A stretch of DNA of 45,019 nt from a virus. Of this stretch, positions 6,387 through 14,328 are shown piece by piece. The stretch spans positions 1 through 45,019 of IMG/VR virus record IMGVR_UViG_3300048020_000066, one strand, 5' to 3'. Under the pieces are notes generated by a model that worked only from the letters and a program-made list of their open reading frames with translations, had not been told where the DNA came from and searched no databases. The position numbers and the translations under genes were made by a program. The first letter of the stretch is position 1, and every line of letters starts with the position of its first letter.

Positions 6387-6776
6387 TTATCTTTTTTTAC
6401 AATTTTTTTGTGAATCAGTTAATACATTGTAATTATTACCGACCACTAGGAACATTAAACCATTAACTTGTCGGATACTTCGACTAGACAAGTTTCCTTG
6501 TTTCTTATCATATTTTAATGCTGGAACAAAGACTGCCGTTTTTACAAAAACCATATCACCGATTGAAGGCCTCTCTCCTATGATAGGATTTAGTTCTCTT
6601 ACACAATCGTATTGAAGACCACGATAAGTTGAGTAGACATCTAATAATTGTAATGTGGTAAAGACTACCCAGTCTGTTGATGTGGGTGGTTCAACTATTC
6701 TCCAATGGAGTGTAGATAGTGACTTGTTCTTCTTTTCCCTTAACTTTGATTCTATCAACTTCTGAGAATTTTCCAT
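6387..6776 (-). CDS. Small polytopic membrane protein (DUF5658-like)
   Basis: 129 aa from the ATG at 6776, overlapping the cyclase 3' end by 86 nt. The reading frame stays open further upstream, but that part is antisense-frame shadow of the cyclase. The region after the overlap looks real: a hydrophobic segment TTLQLLDVYSTYRGL, then CVRELNPIIGERPS, VFVKTAVFVPAL and NGLMFLVVGNNYNVL. The D-x-x-x-T...ELNP...K pattern resembles DUF5658-type membrane proteins. It is the last gene of the curli/cyclase operon. The start is uncertain because no Shine-Dalgarno is obvious. Function unknown. Confidence 0.6.
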   Translation of the reverse strand: MENSQKLIESKLREKKNKSLSTLHWRIVEPPTSTDWVVFTTLQLLDVYSTYRGLQYDCVRELNPIIGERPSIGDMVFVKTAVFVPALKYDKKQGNLSSRSIRQVNGLMFLVVGNNYNVLTDSQKNCKKR

Positions 6777-8544
6777 TCGGACATTGTCGATATGTCTCTG
6801 ATGATAACAACACGTCCACCCCTTCGTAATTACGAGTTTGTCCTTCGAGTCTAGCTCCCAAGTTGACGGCGTCTCCAATGACGGAATAGTCAAATCTAAG
6901 TTCTGACCCCATGTTTCCAACGATGCACTCACCAGTGCTAATCCCAATACCCACGTTAATGGGTGGAAGATTAAGTGGTTGCAATTCTTCATTGAGTTCC
7001 TTAGTTGCTCGTAAAACTTCGAGTGCAGATTTAACTGCTAGTTCAGCATGATTTGGACAATCCAAAGGTGCATTCCAAAAACTCATTATGCAGTCGCCCA
7101 TGTATTTGTCTATGGTTCCTTTATTATTTAGTATAATTTTAGTTTGCATGTCTAAGAACTTGTTTATGAGTTCTACCAATCCTTCGGGGTCGTCTTTGTT
7201 TTTATAGTGTTCGCTTATGGGGGTGAATCCACATATGTCCATAAACATGAATGTCATTTCTTTTCTATCACCACCAAGTTTTAATAATTCGGGGTTTTCT
7301 GCAAGTTGGTCAACCATGTCGGGAGATAAATACTTTTGAAACTGCTTCTTAATTTGTTCTTTGAGTTGATAGGTTTTATAGTATTTGTTGAAAGAAGCAT
7401 GTCCAAACACAACTATGGAGGCCATCGATGAGTAGAAGATATCGAAAAGAACGAAACTTGAAGTCCACAAATAGAAACCCAAACCCACCTGAAATCCAAC
7501 AATACCTAGACTCACTATCCCCGAAAAAATTGTGGGAAGTGTGTAGACCGATACCATTATTCCTAGAAGGACTGTCAAAAGAAGAACAGTCTCTAAAAAT
7601 TCAAGATAGTAGGATTGTTGTATTTGAACTCCTGTGGAGACGGACTGGAGGATTGAAGCTTGAACTTCGTGGGGATACTTTACACCCACTGGGGTTGAAA
7701 CTGGATTATTCAGACCTTCCGCCGTCAGACCCCATATCAGAATCTTATCTTCTAAATTAACTAGAGGTAAATCTTTTGCAGACACCCTCTCGAATTCATT
7801 CCAATATCCTATAAGGATATCTGCAGTTGGAGTGGTTTCGATGGGGGGTTGTCTCCCTATACGAATCCATTCTATTCCAACTTCGGGTGTCACTCTAGTC
7901 TGATAATTCTGTTGGTCAAACATTGCACGTAAAACTTCTAGTGCAACTGAAGGATACACTACACCATTTGCAGAAACAATCAATGGTGCAGAACGAACTG
8001 TTCCGTCAAAGTTTGCAGTTCCACTGACTGGTGGTGTTGTGACCGTGACTCCACTACCATAAGAATTTTGTTCTAAGATAGGTATTGGACTTGCAATACC
8101 CGAGAAAGTCCATATATGGTCTTCTATATTTCCTCCACCAAACACACTTGTTCTAACGAATGGTGCAGAACCAGTGTCCTTTTGTATGGTCGGTGCAGAA
8201 GATAAAATCGATAAACGATTAACTAATCCTTCTGCAAATAATTCATCTTTTCCTGAAATCCTATCAGGTTCTTTGAAGAGTTGAGTAAAAACATGTGTAT
8301 TAGTGTATGAAGTGTCAAGCATTAAATCCCTGTAAATAGACCTTGGCCATGGATACTGACCATACACTTCAAGTGAAGGTTCGTCTATATCTACTAAGAC
8401 AATGTTATCTACCTGAACTATTTCCTGAGATTGGTGTAGATAATCAAAGTAAGACCATGATACATTTTCTATAAAATAGGGATTCCAAATTTTAAGTCCG
8501 AATAGCAACCCTATAGTCACTACGACTGTTTTCCACGAATACAT
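6691..8544 (-). CDS. CHASE2-domain class III adenylate cyclase
   Basis: 617 aa membrane sensor-cyclase making cAMP. An N-terminal membrane helix (about 5-20) is followed by an extracytoplasmic CHASE2 domain (about 30-300, with VDIDEPSLEVYGQYPWPRS and PVGVKYPHEVQASIL), three membrane helices (about 310-385), a short linker and a cyclase domain (about 430-610). Metal-binding D436 (FMFMDICGFT) and D484 (DKYMGD), adenine-selecting K480, substrate D552, and transition-state N561/R565 (VNLGARLE) are all present. It should be active and specific for ATP. The ATG overlaps the curlin stop (TAATG). CHASE2 cyclases often accompany FecR-domain proteins in bacteria, as here. Phage-borne copies are unusual. 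Confidence 0.93.
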   Translation of the reverse strand: MYSWKTVVVTIGLLFGLKIWNPYFIENVSWSYFDYLHQSQEIVQVDNIVLVDIDEPSLEVYGQYPWPRSIYRDLMLDTSYTNTHVFTQLFKEPDRISGKDELFAEGLVNRLSILSSAPTIQKDTGSAPFVRTSVFGGGNIEDHIWTFSGIASPIPILEQNSYGSGVTVTTPPVSGTANFDGTVRSAPLIVSANGVVYPSVALEVLRAMFDQQNYQTRVTPEVGIEWIRIGRQPPIETTPTADILIGYWNEFERVSAKDLPLVNLEDKILIWGLTAEGLNNPVSTPVGVKYPHEVQASILQSVSTGVQIQQSYYLEFLETVLLLTVLLGIMVSVYTLPTIFSGIVSLGIVGFQVGLGFYLWTSSFVLFDIFYSSMASIVVFGHASFNKYYKTYQLKEQIKKQFQKYLSPDMVDQLAENPELLKLGGDRKEMTFMFMDICGFTPISEHYKNKDDPEGLVELINKFLDMQTKIILNNKGTIDKYMGDCIMSFWNAPLDCPNHAELAVKSALEVLRATKELNEELQPLNLPPINVGIGISTGECIVGNMGSELRFDYSVIGDAVNLGARLEGQTRNYEGVDVLLSSETYRQCPNGKFSEVDRIKVKGKEEQVTIYTPLENS

Positions 8545-9347
8545 TAATTACCTTGTGTCACTGATACAGAACAACCACCTACCGTAATACAATTTTGTGT
8601 AAGTGAATATGTTTGTGCTATACTTCCTGTTTGGGTTAAACTTAAATCTGTCGGGTAAGTTCCACCTATTGTTATTGTTGCAGTGTGAGCTCCAGTCTTT
8701 TTCTGAACTATTGCAACTTCATTTGAATCGTTATTAATTGTTCCTGTAAGTGTCTTATTTCCATTCTGCATTTGTTTTGCATAAACATCATTATAATCAC
8801 CGTAAATGTTCCATATCATACTATGTTGAATAGTATCTGAATCTTGTTTCTGACTTCCTTTGAAATCATTATAGTCACCATGGATATCTAATCTTACATA
8901 GTTTCCACCAGGCTCATATCCGTCATAACTCCAATTAGGTGATAAACTATTATTGTTTTCATATCCTTGTCCAAAAACAACTTCATTGTAATTACCCCAA
9001 ACATGAAATCCAAAATCGTTATCATTACAATTTCCTGATGAACACTTCTGTCTAACGTCTATATCATTATTATATCCGTCTAAGTCACCACCCCATTGTT
9101 TGCCTGAACCCCATGTATCAGTATAACCAAAATACAATCCATTACCTTGTTGTAAAAGATTTATTGTATTGTTTTGGTGGTCAAAGGAAAACCGTGCAAG
9201 GTTGTTATAACCTATTTGGTCTATATTTAAATCTGCATTGTCACCACCACTGACTTGTTCTACATGAACGTGATTATCGTCTGCATAAGAAAACATAGGG
9301 ATTATTAAAATCCCTATGAAAAGAAATGTTTTCTTTAAAATAACCAT
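8544..9347 (-). CDS. Secreted curlin-like amyloid repeat protein 1 (CsgA/CsgB-like)
   Basis: 267 aa with an N-terminal signal peptide (hydrophobic 6-20, cleavage near SYA). Curlin-type repeats are visible: NIDQIGYNNLA, LLQQGNGLYFG and several G-x-Y-N-D/E-V/F units (GNYNEV, GDYNDF, GDYNDV), then SLTQTGSIAQTYSLTQ. Q, N and G dominate, as in amyloid subunits exported through CsgG. Four Cys residues (CSSGNC, and CITVGGC near the end) are atypical for CsgA. No Shine-Dalgarno: the ATG lies inside the preceding 48-aa gene, implying coupling. It is followed directly by the cyclase. It could be fibre subunit or nucleator. Confidence 0.8.
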   Translation of the reverse strand: MVILKKTFLFIGILIIPMFSYADDNHVHVEQVSGGDNADLNIDQIGYNNLARFSFDHQNNTINLLQQGNGLYFGYTDTWGSGKQWGGDLDGYNNDIDVRQKCSSGNCNDNDFGFHVWGNYNEVVFGQGYENNNSLSPNWSYDGYEPGGNYVRLDIHGDYNDFKGSQKQDSDTIQHSMIWNIYGDYNDVYAKQMQNGNKTLTGTINNDSNEVAIVQKKTGAHTATITIGGTYPTDLSLTQTGSIAQTYSLTQNCITVGGCSVSVTQGN

Positions 9348-9481
9348 TGTAATATTAATATTGTTAATATACCTTTAAACCATGCGAACCACATAGCTTG
9401 ATACTGAGTCATACCGAATTCGTTTAACCACCATTCGGTTCTTCTCTCATGCCACTTAAGTAATTTAGCAAAATTATCCAT
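9335..9481 (-). CDS. 48-aa single-span membrane protein
   Basis: Short ORF with a perfect AGGAGG Shine-Dalgarno 6 nt before the ATG, stronger than those of its neighbours. The protein starts MDNFAKLLKWHERRTEWWLN. It is Trp-rich and ends in a hydrophobic stretch (GILTILILQWLF), consistent with one C-terminal membrane helix or an amphipathic interface helix. It overlaps the curlin-1 start by 13 nt and probably drives translation of that gene. I recognise no family. Possible roles are accessory membrane factor for curlin export or a lysis peptide. Confidence 0.8.
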   Translation of the reverse strand: MDNFAKLLKWHERRTEWWLNEFGMTQYQAMWFAWFKGILTILILQWLF

Positions 9482-9502
9482 AAGTTGCCTCCTGTATAGT
9501 AT

Positions 9503-10660
9503 TTAGTTAGATTGATTGATAAAGATACGTATGCTGGGGTCTCCGTTTCCGAACTCTATTATACCTTCCCAACCTTCTACCCTAGTGTCTATGAAACCCG
9601 AACCACCTGATGCAACGGTTATTTCAATAACACCATTCACATTTCTATACAAATACAAGTCTCCGTCTTCTACAAATATGTTAAATTGTGAGTCTTTATT
9701 GAATCCTAGTGTTGCACCCTTTAGGTCATACTCACCTGTTTTTCCTTTTTGTCTGTCACCAAGACTTGCAGTTGTCTTTTCTAATGCTTCTACTATGTCT
9801 AATAAATCTGTAAGGAAGTCTACATCTAGAAAATCTATATCTAGTCTACTTCCTCTTGCATCATAATTCTCATCTGTATAATCATCTATATCTTTTTCTA
9901 ATTCATTAAATTCTAAAAAATCAACATCAAGAACACCTTGGTCTTGGTCGAGGTCATCTGCAGCCTGTTCTTCTACTGCTTGTTTTACTTCTTGTGGTGG
10001 GTTAACAATAAACATATTGTCAATGAGACCAACTGTTAAATTGTTTATTACTACTGATTGAGTTGGTGGTTGGTCTAAACTTGATACCATTGTTGCTTGG
10101 TAAGCTTGGTTTAGAATTGTTTCTCCACCTTCATTATACACTCTGATTTCACCCGAAGGAGTCACTCCGTCCTCGTCTGGCAAAAGTATAACAAGTGTTC
10201 TTCCTAGTTCATCAATAGTTGTTGTGAAATCTGTTCCGTTAATTGCTATCTGAGCAGTTGGTGTTTGTATGTCTATGTTTGCTTTCTTTATTTTGTTTCC
10301 CTTACCCGAAGCAAATCGTGCCGTTCCTTGCACCATTCTCATAGCCATTTTTGATTTAGAAGGGTCGGGGTCGTAATACACTTCGTCAATGTATACAACT
10401 GTATGTTCGATTAGGTCAAGTTTTTCTTCGTCTAAAAACTCAATCTTCATTCTACCATTTACGGTTTCTGCAACGTCATATAGTTCAATACCAAAACCAA
10501 CGTTTGGTTTTTCTATATCTTGGTTTTGTCTTGTGAGTTTAGATAGTCCGATAGATTCTACAATATCACCAATGGGGTCACTATGTATGACCCCACTGAT
10601 AAACATGAGATTAATTACTATCGCTAGATGAATCTTTTTGAGTAATTTGGATTGTTGCAT
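9503..10660 (-). CDS. FecR-domain secreted protein
   Basis: About 385 aa. An N-terminal signal peptide (KKIHLAIVINLMFISGVIHS) precedes a FecR-like domain at about 40-205. The FecR signature is clear: ARFASGKGNKIKKANIDIQTPTAQI, with TPTAQIAINGTDF and LGRTLVILLPD. A low-complexity acidic stretch with DVDFL/DIDFL repeats (about 240-290) follows, then a beta-rich C-terminal domain. The start is ATG 10660 inside the curlin-2 3' end. FecR-domain proteins of this secreted type are commonly encoded next to CHASE2 cyclases, as here. It probably acts in the periplasm or outside the cell, not as the classic anti-sigma regulator. Confidence 0.85.
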   Translation of the reverse strand: MQQSKLLKKIHLAIVINLMFISGVIHSDPIGDIVESIGLSKLTRQNQDIEKPNVGFGIELYDVAETVNGRMKIEFLDEEKLDLIEHTVVYIDEVYYDPDPSKSKMAMRMVQGTARFASGKGNKIKKANIDIQTPTAQIAINGTDFTTTIDELGRTLVILLPDEDGVTPSGEIRVYNEGGETILNQAYQATMVSSLDQPPTQSVVINNLTVGLIDNMFIVNPPQEVKQAVEEQAADDLDQDQGVLDVDFLEFNELEKDIDDYTDENYDARGSRLDIDFLDVDFLTDLLDIVEALEKTTASLGDRQKGKTGEYDLKGATLGFNKDSQFNIFVEDGDLYLYRNVNGVIEITVASGGSGFIDTRVEGWEGIIEFGNGDPSIRIFINQSN

Positions 10661-11345
10661 TATCACTTGTAATATCCAGTGTAATTAGTGCATTAGGTGT
10701 TGCACATGCAGCGTTTGACGGCGAACATGTTCCACTAATTTGTGTAATATCCATATCTGCACTATCTCCGTCTAGGTCAACAACTATAGATTGTTCCCCG
10801 TCTGACTGAAGTGTGTTAATATTATTACTTGAACCCGTGACTTCAAAGTCCCAAGTTAAGTCATCACTTTCCCAATCAATATCAAAAACATTCGAACTAC
10901 CGATTAGTATTAAGTCTGAATTAAGTCTCTCTGCACTATACACACTACCTTGGTCAAGGTCGAAAGTATTACTACTTCCAGTGACATCAAAGTTAATGTC
11001 TGATGAGTCTGCACTACCTACATCTCCGATTAACCAGTCTATACTGTTTGAATCACCAGTAAAGTCTAGTTTATACACTGAACTATCTGCTTCAACAGAA
11101 CCGAACAGCTTATTTGAATTTCCTAAAAAGTCCAAATCAAAGTCCAAAGTTGCACCAGTAATAGTCATAGCTGCTGAAGCAGTTGCATCAGAACCTATCT
11201 TATTACCAAAACCAATTTGGTCTATATACAAGTCTAAAGTATCACCTGTTTGGGTAATCTTAATCTCGTTGTCATCAGTGGATTGTGCGAAAAGAATTGG
11301 TGTCGACATTATTGCAATTAAGCAAAAACTAATAAGTTTATTCAT
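10611..11345 (-). CDS. Secreted curlin-like repeat protein 2
   Basis: 244 aa with signal peptide (LISFCLIAIMSTPILFAQS). The mature part starts with curlin-like units (IKITQTGDTLDLYIDQIGFGNKIG) and continues with a repeated G-[DNS]-S-N unit flanked by alternating Asp/hydrophobic strands (FLGNSNKLFG, FTGDSNSIDW, VTGSSNTFDL, LIGSSNVFDI, VTGSSNNINT). It ends with DITQISG and IQITQKD. It is strongly Asp/Ser-rich and acidic, unlike classic CsgA. AGAGGAAAACGAAA precedes the ATG. It is encoded right after the CsgG-like pore, with its start overlapping. It is probably an amyloid-like beta-solenoid substrate of the CsgG/CsgF system. Confidence 0.8.
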   Translation of the reverse strand: MNKLISFCLIAIMSTPILFAQSTDDNEIKITQTGDTLDLYIDQIGFGNKIGSDATASAAMTITGATLDFDLDFLGNSNKLFGSVEADSSVYKLDFTGDSNSIDWLIGDVGSADSSDINFDVTGSSNTFDLDQGSVYSAERLNSDLILIGSSNVFDIDWESDDLTWDFEVTGSSNNINTLQSDGEQSIVVDLDGDSADMDITQISGTCSPSNAACATPNALITLDITSDNATIQITQKDSSSDSN

Positions 11346-12285
11346 TTTCGTTTTCCTCTGTATTTAAATCATGGAGTTCGTTTTTCCCATCTGCTTGATG
11401 AGGGTGACGATGTCCATCTGTTATTTTCCAAAAACCTCTATCGTGTCCTTGGTAAACTAATTCCAGCACTGCAGCTTCTATTGCAGTTCTCACTGCATAA
11501 GTCACTGATTCATTATTTCCCACTCCGTCTTCAATCTCTACCAACTGAGTTCCTTGTTCAACATATTTAAATATGTCACCACTTCCTCCAACTGATAATA
11601 TAGATTTCCGAGTCTGCACATTCAATAACACTTCACCAGTAAGAACTGAAACAGCTCTCATGGATATTGTCACAATGTCTTGACGATATTGTTGACTATA
11701 TCCAATTCCGAGGGTTCTTGCGCCTGTTCCCCCAGTTCTGACATTAGTGTCATATCCTATTATTCCACCTTCAATTATAATTCCAGCAAATAATAGGGGT
11801 TGGACACCTTTTGCTTGAGTGTCCGTTGCTTTCGCAAAATCTTGTCTTGCAGAACGTATGATTTGTCTTTCTCTGACTAATGCGTCTATACCATTTCGTT
11901 CTACGACTCTAAACCATGTTCCACCACCAGCAGTCTTAAGTGCATCGATAACCATTTCGACACCACCTTGGGTGACTGCAGTAGAGAAATCTGCAATACC
12001 TTCTCTGTTTTTTCTCTGACCAGTTTTGTCTGTAAAATTATAAACTGCAACTATGGGTCTCTCTTCGGCAGGTGGTAAGTTTAATAACTCAACAAAAGAA
12101 GGTAAGTTAACTACAACGGGTGCTTCTACACATATGTAGTTTCGGGATATAGGTTTACGTATCCCAGTTATTGCGTCCTTTCTTACTCCGTCTTCCCAGT
12201 TCTTACAATCTTGTGGGGTGTCTGAGAATTTTGGGACACTGGCACAACTAGAAACTAAAAGTGCAACTAGTAAATATCTCAACAT
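11338..12285 (-). CDS. csgG: CsgG-like curli secretion pore lipoprotein
   Basis: 315 aa (E. coli CsgG is 277). Lipoprotein signal with lipobox VSSC (C14). CsgG family motifs: PIVAVYNFTDKTGQRK, STAVTQGGVEMVIDAL, WFRVVERNGIDALVRERQI, FAGIIIEGGIIGYDTN, and the RQDIVTISMRAVSVLTGEVL region. The family forms a nonameric outer-membrane channel that exports curlin subunits. The C-terminus has a His-rich tail (HRHPHQADGKNELH) not typical of E. coli CsgG. The start overlaps the csgF-like stop (TAATG). There is no CsgE partner nearby, so gating may be by host or unrelated proteins. Confidence 0.93.
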   Translation of the reverse strand: MLRYLLVALLVSSCASVPKFSDTPQDCKNWEDGVRKDAITGIRKPISRNYICVEAPVVVNLPSFVELLNLPPAEERPIVAVYNFTDKTGQRKNREGIADFSTAVTQGGVEMVIDALKTAGGGTWFRVVERNGIDALVRERQIIRSARQDFAKATDTQAKGVQPLLFAGIIIEGGIIGYDTNVRTGGTGARTLGIGYSQQYRQDIVTISMRAVSVLTGEVLLNVQTRKSILSVGGSGDIFKYVEQGTQLVEIEDGVGNNESVTYAVRTAIEAAVLELVYQGHDRGFWKITDGHRHPHQADGKNELHDLNTEENENE

Positions 12286-12785
12286 TATCCACCACCGTCA
12301 CCCGTTCCAATGTCGGGGTCTTGACCGAAGTTTCCAGTTCCGATTGGTATTTCAATCACTGTTTCAGAACCACTAGAATCAACGATAGTCATTTTAATAA
12401 CGTCTGTTCCTTCTGCATTAGTCACTACTTCCCATGTTATAATACTTCCTTCAAGTGCAAAAGAACCAAAGTTTGTTGCATTGTCATTACTGAACATTGA
12501 CTCGACTAATTGTTTAGACAACTGAGCATAAATTCTGCTTTCTAAGTTTCTAATAAATTTTGCAAGTGTAGTATTTTCTGCTTCTCTTTGTGCAGCTTTT
12601 TCGGCACTTGCTAATGCGTCCTCTATTGCTTTCTTACGGCTGGATTCTTGGTTCTCAATCGTAAGATAATGAGCACCAGTTCCTATGCCTGAGAATGAGG
12701 GATTTTTAAATTTGTGAACTATATCAGCTTCAACTGAAAATGATAGTAGACACAACAAATATGTAATAGGTAATACTTTAGTCAT
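12285..12785 (-). CDS. csgF: CsgF-like curli assembly factor
   Basis: 166 aa from the ATG at 12785, chosen because GGAAGGAATCT precedes it; an upstream in-frame start at 12818 would put a basic stretch before the signal peptide. The signal peptide is VLPITYLLCLLSFSVEA. The mature N-terminus FKNPSFSGIG matches the FxNPxFGG CsgG-binding segment of CsgF. A helix (about 50-115) follows, then a C-terminal beta part (EGSIITWEVV..TVIEIPIG). CsgF plugs the CsgG pore outside the cell and anchors the nucleator. It is encoded directly before the csgG-like gene, so the pore pair is kept together. Confidence 0.88.
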   Translation of the reverse strand: MTKVLPITYLLCLLSFSVEADIVHKFKNPSFSGIGTGAHYLTIENQESSRKKAIEDALASAEKAAQREAENTTLAKFIRNLESRIYAQLSKQLVESMFSNDNATNFGSFALEGSIITWEVVTNAEGTDVIKMTIVDSSGSETVIEIPIGTGNFGQDPDIGTGDGGG

Positions 12786-13062
12786 TGTTAGATTCCTTCC
12801 TTTTCTTTTCATTTTCACGGTATTCTAAAACAACGTCAACTTTTTCTTTTAAACGAATTAAGTCTTGGTCAAGCATTCTTGTTTGGTCAATGACTCGAAT
12901 CAATGCAAAGTGCATTTTTTCTATTTCGGGGTCTATATGTTCACTAATAAAGTTCCATACAAAATAAACGAAATATCCAAGTCCTACCATCATGACTACG
13001 GGGAATCCGTAATCGGTAATCAATTCTACAATCATAGGGACTTCTGAAACTACTTCTTCCAT
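12778..13062 (-). CDS. Small membrane protein, BhlA/UviB holin-like
   Basis: 94 aa: a short acidic N-terminus, one hydrophobic segment (about 17-37, FPVVMMVGLGYFVYFVWNFI), then a charged coiled-coil tail ending in KKRKESNND. This layout matches BhlA/UviB-type holin-like proteins and also the neighbouring 98-aa protein at 13062-13358, of which it may be a diverged duplicate. GGAGGGATTA precedes the ATG, which overlaps the upstream stop. It overlaps the csgF-like start by 8 nt, so it is part of the curli operon. A holin role is inferred from layout only. Confidence 0.75.
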   Translation of the reverse strand: MEEVVSEVPMIVELITDYGFPVVMMVGLGYFVYFVWNFISEHIDPEIEKMHFALIRVIDQTRMLDQDLIRLKEKVDVVLEYRENEKKRKESNND

Positions 13063-13358
13063 TAATCCCTCCTTACATCAAGTTTTCCGTCCTCTATAAA
13101 GTTCTCTGCTCTTGCAACTCTGTCTATATCGGGTCTTAACTCTAATGCACTTGACACTAACATATCTATCTTAATCATTTCGTTAGACATTGTTCTTGCA
13201 CGATTCTCTAAAGATTCGCAAAACATTGTTAGTGTTTTTATGGAATCAACTATACCTTCCATGATTTGTCTAATTATTAGAAAGATGAATACACCCATGA
13301 CCAATGCCATTGCAATTGGGACACCCACATCACCTATCAAATCGAATATAGCTTCCAT
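13062..13358 (-). CDS. Small membrane protein heading the curli operon
   Basis: 98 aa. The N-terminal hydrophobic helix (about 9-31, VGVPIAMALVMGVFIFLIIRQI) is followed by a long amphipathic helix and a charged tail. The topology equals that of the next gene product (TM then coiled coil), as in BhlA/UviB-type proteins or oligomeric membrane adaptors. It is the first gene after the late promoter TATAAATA, which lies 5 nt before the ATG; there is no Shine-Dalgarno, so a leaderless late mRNA is predicted. Function unknown. Confidence 0.75.
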   Translation of the reverse strand: MEAIFDLIGDVGVPIAMALVMGVFIFLIIRQIMEGIVDSIKTLTMFCESLENRARTMSNEMIKIDMLVSSALELRPDIDRVARAENFIEDGKLDVRRD

Positions 13359-13363
13359 ACTTC

Positions 13364-13371
13364 TATTTATA
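13364..13371 (-). promoter_or_regulatory. Late promoter TATAAATA of the curli operon
   Basis: Exact T4-type late box on the minus strand, 5 nt before the ATG at 13358. It sits directly behind the terminator of the previous gene. With T4 spacing (box at -13 to -6), +1 falls on the A of the ATG. Confidence 0.75.
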
Positions 13372-13400
13372 TAAAAAAAGGGAGCATGAGCTCCCTTTTT
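13372..13400 (-). terminator. Rho-independent terminator
   Basis: Minus-strand RNA GGGAGC-TCAT-GCTCCC followed by seven T. It ends the transcript of the 13416-13661 gene and isolates the curli operon from upstream transcription. Confidence 0.85.
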
Positions 13401-13415
13401 GAGATTGTTTCCTAA

Positions 13416-13661
13416 CTATTTTAGTTGGTCACGAATTTCTGAAATAACTGCAGATTTAGCACCACTTTTCTTGACTTTCAGATTTTTCTTCTCTGCAAGT
13501 TCAATCAATTGGTTTTTAGTTAACTTCTTTAACTCTGCAACACTTGGTTTTTTAGGTTTTGATACTGGTTTAACAGATACTTCAACCTTCTTATCTTTTT
13601 TGTTGTTTGAGACAAAGTAAGCAATTACTAAAACGACTAGTATGATTCCTATAATTTCCAT
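13416..13661 (-). CDS. Membrane-anchored HeH/SAP-like domain protein
   Basis: 81 aa. N-terminal membrane helix (IIGIILVVLVIAYFV), a basic Lys/Pro/Val linker (about 20-38), then a HeH/SAP/Rho-N-like helix-extended-helix unit (LKKLTKNQLIELAEKKNLKV...SEIRDQL). Such domains bind nucleic acid, so the protein may tether DNA or RNA at the membrane; this is inference from pattern. AGAGGTAATAAATT precedes the ATG. It is followed by a strong terminator and lies between regA and the curli operon. Confidence 0.78.
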   Translation of the reverse strand: MEIIGIILVVLVIAYFVSNNKKDKKVEVSVKPVSKPKKPSVAELKKLTKNQLIELAEKKNLKVKKSGAKSAVISEIRDQLK

Positions 13662-13678
13662 AATTTATTACCTCTTAT

Positions 13679-13885
13679 TTACTTATCTAACAATGGGTTT
13701 TTATCTTTAGCTTTACCGATTGCAAGTGCAAGGACTTCTAAGTATTTATATACTTTAGCCCACATTTTATCATCATGTGGTGTAGGTGTCAAAGCGACAA
13801 TTACACTACAAATAGATATTACGACTGGAATTACCATTAATAAGTTCCAAATCCCCATAATGAAGTCTATGATAGCTGAGAACAT
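13679..13885 (-). CDS. Small membrane protein, holin-like candidate
   Basis: 68 aa. The start at 13885 is decided by AGGAGG five nt before the ATG and a late promoter TATAAATA at 13900-13907; the longer frame to 13963 lies inside regA. Hydrophobic stretch about 5-35 (IIDFIMGIWNLLMVIPVVIS, ICSVIVALT) can form one or two membrane helices, then a short charged C-terminus. The size and late control fit a holin or antiholin, but no family is recognised. It is followed closely by the HeH-domain membrane protein. Confidence 0.82.
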   Translation of the reverse strand: MFSAIIDFIMGIWNLLMVIPVVISICSVIVALTPTPHDDKMWAKVYKYLEVLALAIGKAKDKNPLLDK

Positions 13886-13899
13886 AGTTCCTCCTGTTA

Positions 13900-13907
13900 T
13901 ATTTATA
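13900..13907 (-). promoter_or_regulatory. Late promoter TATAAATA
   Basis: T4-type late box within the 3' end region of regA, 14 nt before the ATG at 13885, with a Shine-Dalgarno between. It supports the short start for the 68-aa protein and late expression of it and the next gene. Confidence 0.75.
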
Positions 13908-13917
13908 ATCCCTTTAT

Positions 13918-14328
13918 TTAGGGATTTGACGACCCAATTGAGTATTTTGTTGTCAATTTCCATTCATTTTTTTCACGAAATGGAATGATTTTTATCTGAC
14001 TCAATGGTGCTTTTGGTTCGGAAACTTGATTTGAGTTGACTACTGAGACTAGTTTCCATTGTTCTAAAAGTGACACTATAGTGTTCCTTCTTGCAATGTC
14101 TGACTCATCTAAGTTGGACGGTTTACCGTCTAGTTTGAATAGTTCTTTAAAATGTGTTATGTAATACTTACCACGTTTGTGAAGTATATGACATGATTGG
14201 AATAGTTCCTTATCTTTACGAGAGGCTACACCAATACGTGAGAGTGTTTCTCTTATTTTTAAAAAATCTTCTTTTTCGGGGAATGTGACCTCTACTAGGT
14301 CTTTTACTATATCTTCTTGGTTATCCAT
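13918..14328 (-). CDS. regA: RegA translational repressor
   Basis: 136 aa; T4 RegA is 122. It binds ribosome-binding sites of early phage mRNAs and represses translation. Clear T4 matches: EDFLKIRETLSRIGVASRKDKELFQSCHILHKRGKYYITHFKELFKLDGK, split here by T4 landmarks QSCHIL, HFKE and DG; and EWKLTTKYSIG near the end (T4 EWKLVPKYTIGN). The start is ATG 14328, overlapping gene 62 by 8 nt; a GTG four codons upstream is possible. In T4 gene 43 follows immediately; here a promoter and accessory genes follow. Confidence 0.95.
   Translation of the reverse strand: MDNQEDIVKDLVEVTFPEKEDFLKIRETLSRIGVASRKDKELFQSCHILHKRGKYYITHFKELFKLDGKPSNLDESDIARRNTIVSLLEQWKLVSVVNSNQVSEPKAPLSQIKIIPFREKNEWKLTTKYSIGSSNP

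Follow-up and report, generated by a model that had tools for sequence, protein, structure and literature searches.

What is a set of curli-like secretion genes doing inside the genome of a T4-like phage? The question is raised by IMG/VR virus record IMGVR_UViG_3300048020_000066, which was analysed over its whole length of 45,019 bases (positions 1 to 45,019; the window). On its minus strand the window carries T4-like genes for DNA polymerase, clamp loader, regA, a gp46/47-like nuclease, the gp23 major head protein, portal, tail sheath and terminase, and its gp23 is nearest to those of Pelagibacter phage HTVC008M and Methylophilales phage Melnitz (66% identity to each). An earlier reading of the sequence (the original prediction) had recognized a cluster for curli-like secretion lying behind a late promoter in the genome of a T4-like phage. 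This identification is now supported, and every gene that it named was recovered on the minus strand where it had been placed. The cluster occupies 13358 to 6691 on this strand, in the order HK1, HK2, CsgF, CsgG, curlin A, FecR-domain protein, TM48, curlin B and CHASE2 cyclase, and a weakly constrained extra open reading frame (ORF) continues to 6387. We consider that this is probably a late-transcribed type VIII curli module exporting curlins as fibres, with the FecR-domain protein dedicated to curli and coupled to the cyclase. Its features are as follows.

13375 to 13400, strand unassigned: terminator-like hairpin directly upstream of the late promoter; scan match on the plus strand, and a T run follows on the minus strand too.
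13364 to 13371, minus strand: T4-type late promoter TATAAATA, a consensus match; the predicted transcription start is the ATG of HK1.
13062 to 13358, minus strand: HK1, 98 amino acids (aa), one N-terminal transmembrane helix; phrog_18771, E=3e-24.
12778 to 13062, minus strand: HK2, a 94-aa paralogue of HK1; phrog_18771, E=5e-25.
12285 to 12818, minus strand: CsgF, a signal peptide followed by the FKNPSFSG pore-constriction peptide; PF10614.
11338 to 12285, minus strand: CsgG, outer-membrane lipoprotein pore with lipobox Cys14; PF03783.
10611 to 11345, minus strand: curlin A, secreted acidic curlin-type subunit with tail IQITQKDSSSDSN; PF07012.
9503 to 10666, minus strand: FecR-domain protein; PF04773, E=1e-8.
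9335 to 9481, minus strand: TM48, a 48-aa membrane protein encoded in some of the modules.
8544 to 9347, minus strand: curlin B, secreted Asn/Gly/Gln-rich curlin, matched to the CsgA fibril by its family profile.
6691 to 8544, minus strand: CHASE2 sensor (E=2e-27) with a class III adenylate/guanylate cyclase domain (E=4e-19).
6387 to 6992, minus strand: DUF5658-like ORF with a weak DUF5658 match below the cut-off; start uncertain, overlapping the cyclase gene.

The profile searches on which the original prediction had been made to depend recovered both pore proteins (PF03783, E=2e-51, for CsgG; PF10614, E=7e-16, for CsgF). Residues 60-290 of CsgG match E. coli CsgG structures (E=6e-45), the protein is 47% identical to that of HTVC008M, and the predicted lipobox cysteine, Cys14, is invariant in 14 relatives. 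The match of CsgF spans nearly the whole PF10614 profile, and its translation probably starts at an internal ATG before TKVLPITYLL; a phmmer search of CsgF against the PDB returned no match. The phage CsgF is colinear with bacterial CsgF, constriction peptide FKNPSFSG included, so that the alignment does not support a novel, divergent CsgF fold of the kind claimed for Melnitz. CsgE (PF10627) was not found in the window or in eight other phage contigs, in keeping with the absence noted in the original prediction. Since alphaproteobacterial modules are also without CsgE (PMC9599517), this protein does not define the type VIII class as a whole.

Both secreted proteins that had been read as curlin-like from their repeats proved to be so. 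Curlin A scores 22.6 bits against the Pfam curlin family (PF07012; cut-off 20.7) and contains 39 Asp and Glu versus 6 Lys and Arg residues. Curlin B scores 13.6 bits, under this cut-off, and was recognized through a profile of 51 relatives, whose top two matches among 177,635 PDB sequences were the CsgA fibril of E. coli at E=6e-4 and, at E=0.0015, a further protein with curlin repeats. Repeats of the type hydrophobic-x-hydrophobic...GxxN exceeded those of shuffled sequences in both proteins (P<=0.0005). The model of curlin B is a beta-solenoid of 18 strands (predicted local distance difference test score, pLDDT, 79; predicted template modelling score 0.76) whose top structural neighbours are beta-helix proteins; a Foldseek comparison with the PDB gave nothing significant, mostly beta-helix proteins, and the CsgA fibril listed by VIA-align (Z 10.4) was not relied on because its root-mean-square deviation (rmsd) is 8.5. 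Curlin B ends in VSVTQGN, and a C-terminal strand of the form hydrophobic-x-hydrophobic-x-Q was present in 76/79 curlin A, 59/64 curlin B and 79/79 FecR-domain sequences versus 3/263 other phage ORFs; the same motif occurs in 51 of 76 bacterial curlins.

The original prediction had proposed a search for the cluster in other phage genomes, and this revealed the same gene order in more than 100 virus contigs. A scan of virus contigs with CsgG yielded 24 relatives sharing the order, and a scan with the FecR-domain protein yielded hundreds of matches. Among the best 80 FecR loci, HK1, HK2, CsgF, CsgG and curlin A were present in all 65 with enough upstream DNA, and curlin B and the cyclase in all 39 with enough downstream DNA, while the HK2 scan found HK1 in 80/80 loci and CsgF in 78/80, most gaps being short contigs; as these FecR and HK2 loci are the closest matches, the counts do not measure how many phages have lost parts. 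The module is flanked in its relatives by the same T4-like genes as here, with regA, gp62 and gp44 upstream and Hsp20 and AhpC downstream. Because the cluster lies inside a T4-like genome and its order recurs in these contigs, it is not a misassembly. Capture of host genes through misassembly or binning, a doubt that accompanied the original prediction, would fit the placement of several relatives in metagenome-assembled genomes (MAGs) labelled bacterial, but independent contigs carry identical flanking T4-like genes and the module occurs in the cultured phages HTVC008M and Melnitz, which rules out a host-contig artefact and leaves this explanation with a negligible probability. Two contigs of 121 and 142 kb in a 'Sphingobacteriales' MAG (L028 and L031; JAAXIF010000105.1 and JAAXIF010000028.1) both contain the phage module; given that L028 has the flanking genes of the window phage, they look like phage contigs that were probably mis-binned.

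Ratios of nonsynonymous to synonymous substitution rates (dN/dS; Nei-Gojobori method, versus three close relatives) were 0.09-0.10 for HK1 (0.09) and HK2, 0.17-0.20 for CsgF, 0.11-0.13 for CsgG, 0.14-0.19 for curlin A, 0.13-0.17 for the FecR-domain protein, 0.25-0.27 for curlin B and 0.10-0.11 for the cyclase. The low values of the curlins indicate that they are maintained as proteins. Constraint was weaker on TM48 (0.24-0.50) and on the DUF5658-like ORF (0.4-0.5), the least constrained gene, which is present in part of the relatives. Beside approximately 66 bacterial CsgG genes, with flanks of at most 10 kb, no FecR, HK or cyclase relatives of the phage type were found, in agreement with PMC9599517. 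Inheritance of the FecR-domain and cyclase genes from a bacterial curli operon was set aside on the same loci and flanks.

The late promoter motif TATAAATA has 10 occurrences in the window, each of them on the coding strand, versus 3.6 expected on both strands together. It precedes HK1 in 39/72 loci and in 20/32 of a further set, and was found before HK2 in 0/72, CsgF in 0/74, curlin B in 5/72, TM48 in 5/34 and the cyclase in 1/58 loci, and never before CsgG, curlin A or FecR. As the promoter precedes HK1 and hardly ever the other genes, the unit as defined by sequence starts at HK1, and the HK1/HK2 pair (12778-13358) belongs to it. The spacing between promoter and HK1 puts the predicted RNA start on the HK1 ATG in 21 of the 39 promoter-bearing relatives, and the same placement in the window (13358-13371) hints at a possible leaderless phage mRNA.

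The two small proteins of 94-98 aa, each with one transmembrane helix, were named 'histidine kinase' ('HK', one or two copies) in PMC9599517. None of 33 family members matched HisKA, HATPase or any other kinase family in Pfam, and HK1 itself had no Pfam match. A second helix of HK1 probably faces the cytoplasm. Matches to PHROG holin and spanin families were weak (best 1e-4, 6/33 members). Assignment to a known family was rejected given these weak and mixed matches, and a holin-like reading may apply. One HK1-type sequence used in the analysis was approximate, close to but not exactly that of a family member. The pair is tied to the curli module, as seen in the 78 of 80 HK2 loci with CsgF.

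The FecR-domain protein was treated as an iron-dependent regulator in PMC9599517. Its model (pLDDT 77) comprises a signal-peptide-like helix (residues 5-23), a FecR fold (about 29-217), a low-confidence acidic helical linker and a C-terminal beta domain (308-387). The cytoplasmic N-terminal anti-sigma part of canonical FecR is not present, the FecR fold following directly after the signal-peptide-like helix. This fold, similar to the FecR domain found in cell-surface signalling proteins, matches that of PupR (Z=15.2, rmsd 2.4, 135 aligned residues), and its first part matches the cell-surface anchoring domain PDB 5ix9 (Z 6.9, 74/76 residues), which belongs to a large bacterial adhesin and serves as its pore-anchoring domain; for the C-terminal domain, no clear match was listed in the structural comparison. 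Alphaproteobacterial relatives, often in frames of 800 to several thousand residues, match residues ~20-235 only, mostly ~20-205, beyond which the phage proteins carry the acidic linker and C-terminal beta domain. The window's protein ends in IRIFINQSN; all 79 complete relatives have I-x-I-x-Q-x-N or a near variant, and Q385 is invariant in 50. A position-specific scoring matrix built from bacterial curlin tails recognized, at a threshold of >=4 bits, 35/79 FecR tails and 0/651 other phage ORFs, but just 19/79 of curlin A, so that the match is supportive rather than proof; likewise the tail motif, being short, is evidence for, not proof of, a link between the FecR-domain protein and the fibre or pore. 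For the FecR-domain protein, a role dedicated to curli, as a part of the fibre or a periplasmic component that is coupled to the CHASE2 cyclase, is more likely than one in iron regulation. A bolder version, in which it is a new curli component whose tail enters CsgG or starts the fibre, which gates, anchors or nucleates in place of CsgE or CsgB, and which reports the state of the pore to the cyclase, we regard as tentative and rather doubtful; if true, the phage would carry a combined machine for fibre export and cyclic AMP (cAMP) signalling.

The cyclase domain aligns with solved adenylate cyclases, and its metal-binding Asp436 and Asp484 are conserved in 14/14 relatives. In the BiofilmReg operon of Burkholderia, an exported FecR-domain protein lies beside a CHASE2 sensor and biofilm is regulated (PMC5192318), while in Sinorhizobium meliloti the outer-membrane barrel NsrA feeds CHASE2 cyclases (PMC13001267) and a FecR-domain protein has been studied in the same cAMP pathway. 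The phage operon brings together a pore in the outer membrane, a FecR protein in the periplasm and a CHASE2 cyclase, which by analogy suggests a relay similar to those of these bacteria. Two alphaproteobacterial loci (L215 and L220) encode FecR-domain proteins in open frames of more than 1,000 aa, and the opposite strand of each holds a CHASE2-type cyclase relative.

In the model that we favour, the module would be transcribed late as one unit from HK1, the first small membrane gene. Homology identifies CsgG as the outer-membrane pore, with CsgF seated on it. Late in infection, curlins A and B would be exported and build curli-like fibres on the infected cell. The FecR-domain protein would most likely act in the periplasm, at the pore or at the fibre base, and could couple export to the CHASE2 cyclase, which would then produce cAMP in the infected cell. 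The benefit would most likely be an altered surface of the infected cell, through which cells are held together or other phages are blocked, both of which were proposed previously (PMC7029224, PMC9004378, PMC9599517) and between which the data do not choose. Several points weigh against fibre export and its coupling to the cyclase: cultures infected with Melnitz, which has these genes too, did not clump (PMC9004378); CsgE was not found; the best PDB match of curlin A, to CsgA, is a weak one at E=0.05; the shortness of the FecR tail motif means that it could reflect convergence on an edge strand; the coupling of FecR to CHASE2 is drawn from analogy, a CHASE2-type cyclase relative being seen at just 2/30 alphaproteobacterial FecR loci within the short stretch read; and the promoter is a predicted consensus match that went undetected in about half of the relatives.

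Two other explanations were weighed against this model. CsgG, with or without CsgF, could have taken on a new role as a pore in the outer membrane, timing lysis or admitting molecules, with the other genes accessory; a lysis-timing pore was proposed and preferred for Melnitz (PMC9004378), and the late promoter and the weak holin and spanin matches of the HK1/HK2 family would suit it. However, both curlin genes are always kept on long-enough contigs and are under purifying selection, which makes a lysis or pore-only role, including the help with lysis suggested in the original prediction, less likely for this module, and the colinearity of CsgF with bacterial CsgF, together with the constraint on the curlins, favours fibre export; we therefore hold the repurposed pore to be unlikely. 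We view with similar scepticism the idea that cAMP is the main product, with the FecR-domain protein and the cyclase sensing the pore or fibre to reset host physiology and the fibres secondary. It draws on the conserved catalytic metal residues (14/14), the dN/dS of 0.11 for the cyclase and the known pairing of FecR with CHASE2 in bacteria (PMC5192318), but would leave two conserved curlins, CsgG and CsgF unexplained.

Two small ORFs at 13416-13661 and 13679-13963, between regA and the module, are kept in many relatives, and one is membrane-like. The HK1-HK2-CsgF-CsgG-curlin-FecR series also occurs in two contigs of jumbo-phage size (L243, IMGVR_UViG_3300028126_000265, 216,820 bp; L244, IMGVR_UViG_3300024228_000554, 339,794 bp), both with a terminase match and L244 (340 kb) with a divergent gp23 match. 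OR851715.1 (hit H9), a 1.5-kb record titled Salmonella phage S.Kent 1-2-1, contains a gene for a CsgG relative and is probably a bacterial fragment.

Amyloid export that a phage encodes, in hosts without known curli, ranks among the stranger traits known from abundant ocean phages, and what it is for is unsolved. The original prediction was correct in pointing to curli annotations in marine phages: pelagimyophages were reported to carry CsgF and CsgG in 2020 (PMC7029224), two phage families were described in 2022 with the complete gene order, including both curlins, FecR and the cyclase (PMC9599517), and a curli operon is known from the OM43 phage Melnitz (PMC9004378). The window shares with the pelagiphage type VIII module (PMC9599517; PMC7029224) its genes and their order, its setting in a marine T4-like phage and the absence of CsgC, CsgD and CsgE, and is syntenic with the modules of HTVC008M and Melnitz, whereas its sequence is only moderately close and it has the additional 48-aa membrane gene. 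For Melnitz, csgA and csgB were reported lacking (PMC9004378), yet the deposited record annotates two curlin-repeat proteins. Bacterial curli operons, namely E. coli csg and the alphaproteobacterial CsgF-CsgG-curlin clusters, have in common with the phage module the CsgG, CsgF and curlin families and the curlin C-terminal strand; unlike E. coli csg, the phage module had no CsgE found, and the bacterial loci examined were without a phage-type FecR-domain protein, CHASE2 cyclase or HK1/HK2 pair. The Burkholderia operon (PMC5192318) resembles it in that a FecR-domain protein is exported and paired with a membrane sensor of the CHASE2 type, and has biofilm as its output, and the CyaD/NsrA system of S. 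meliloti (PMC13001267) in an outer-membrane barrel feeding CHASE2 cyclases, with cAMP as its output; no curli genes are described for either, and we infer rather than observe functional equivalence. The present cluster thus adds a member to a known kind of module, and brings close relatives, selection on all core genes including both curlins, and a conserved late promoter that fixes the start of the unit. Against the naming in PMC9599517, its 'HK' proteins show no kinase domain and its 'FecR' is not a canonical regulator. This correction is open to test, and the protein named as an iron regulator is probably exported and dedicated to curli. Measured against the three phage papers (PMC7029224, PMC9599517, PMC9004378), what is added here is where the promoter lies, that each core gene is constrained, how 'HK' and 'FecR' are to be read, and that virus contigs of 217 and 340 kb carry the module.

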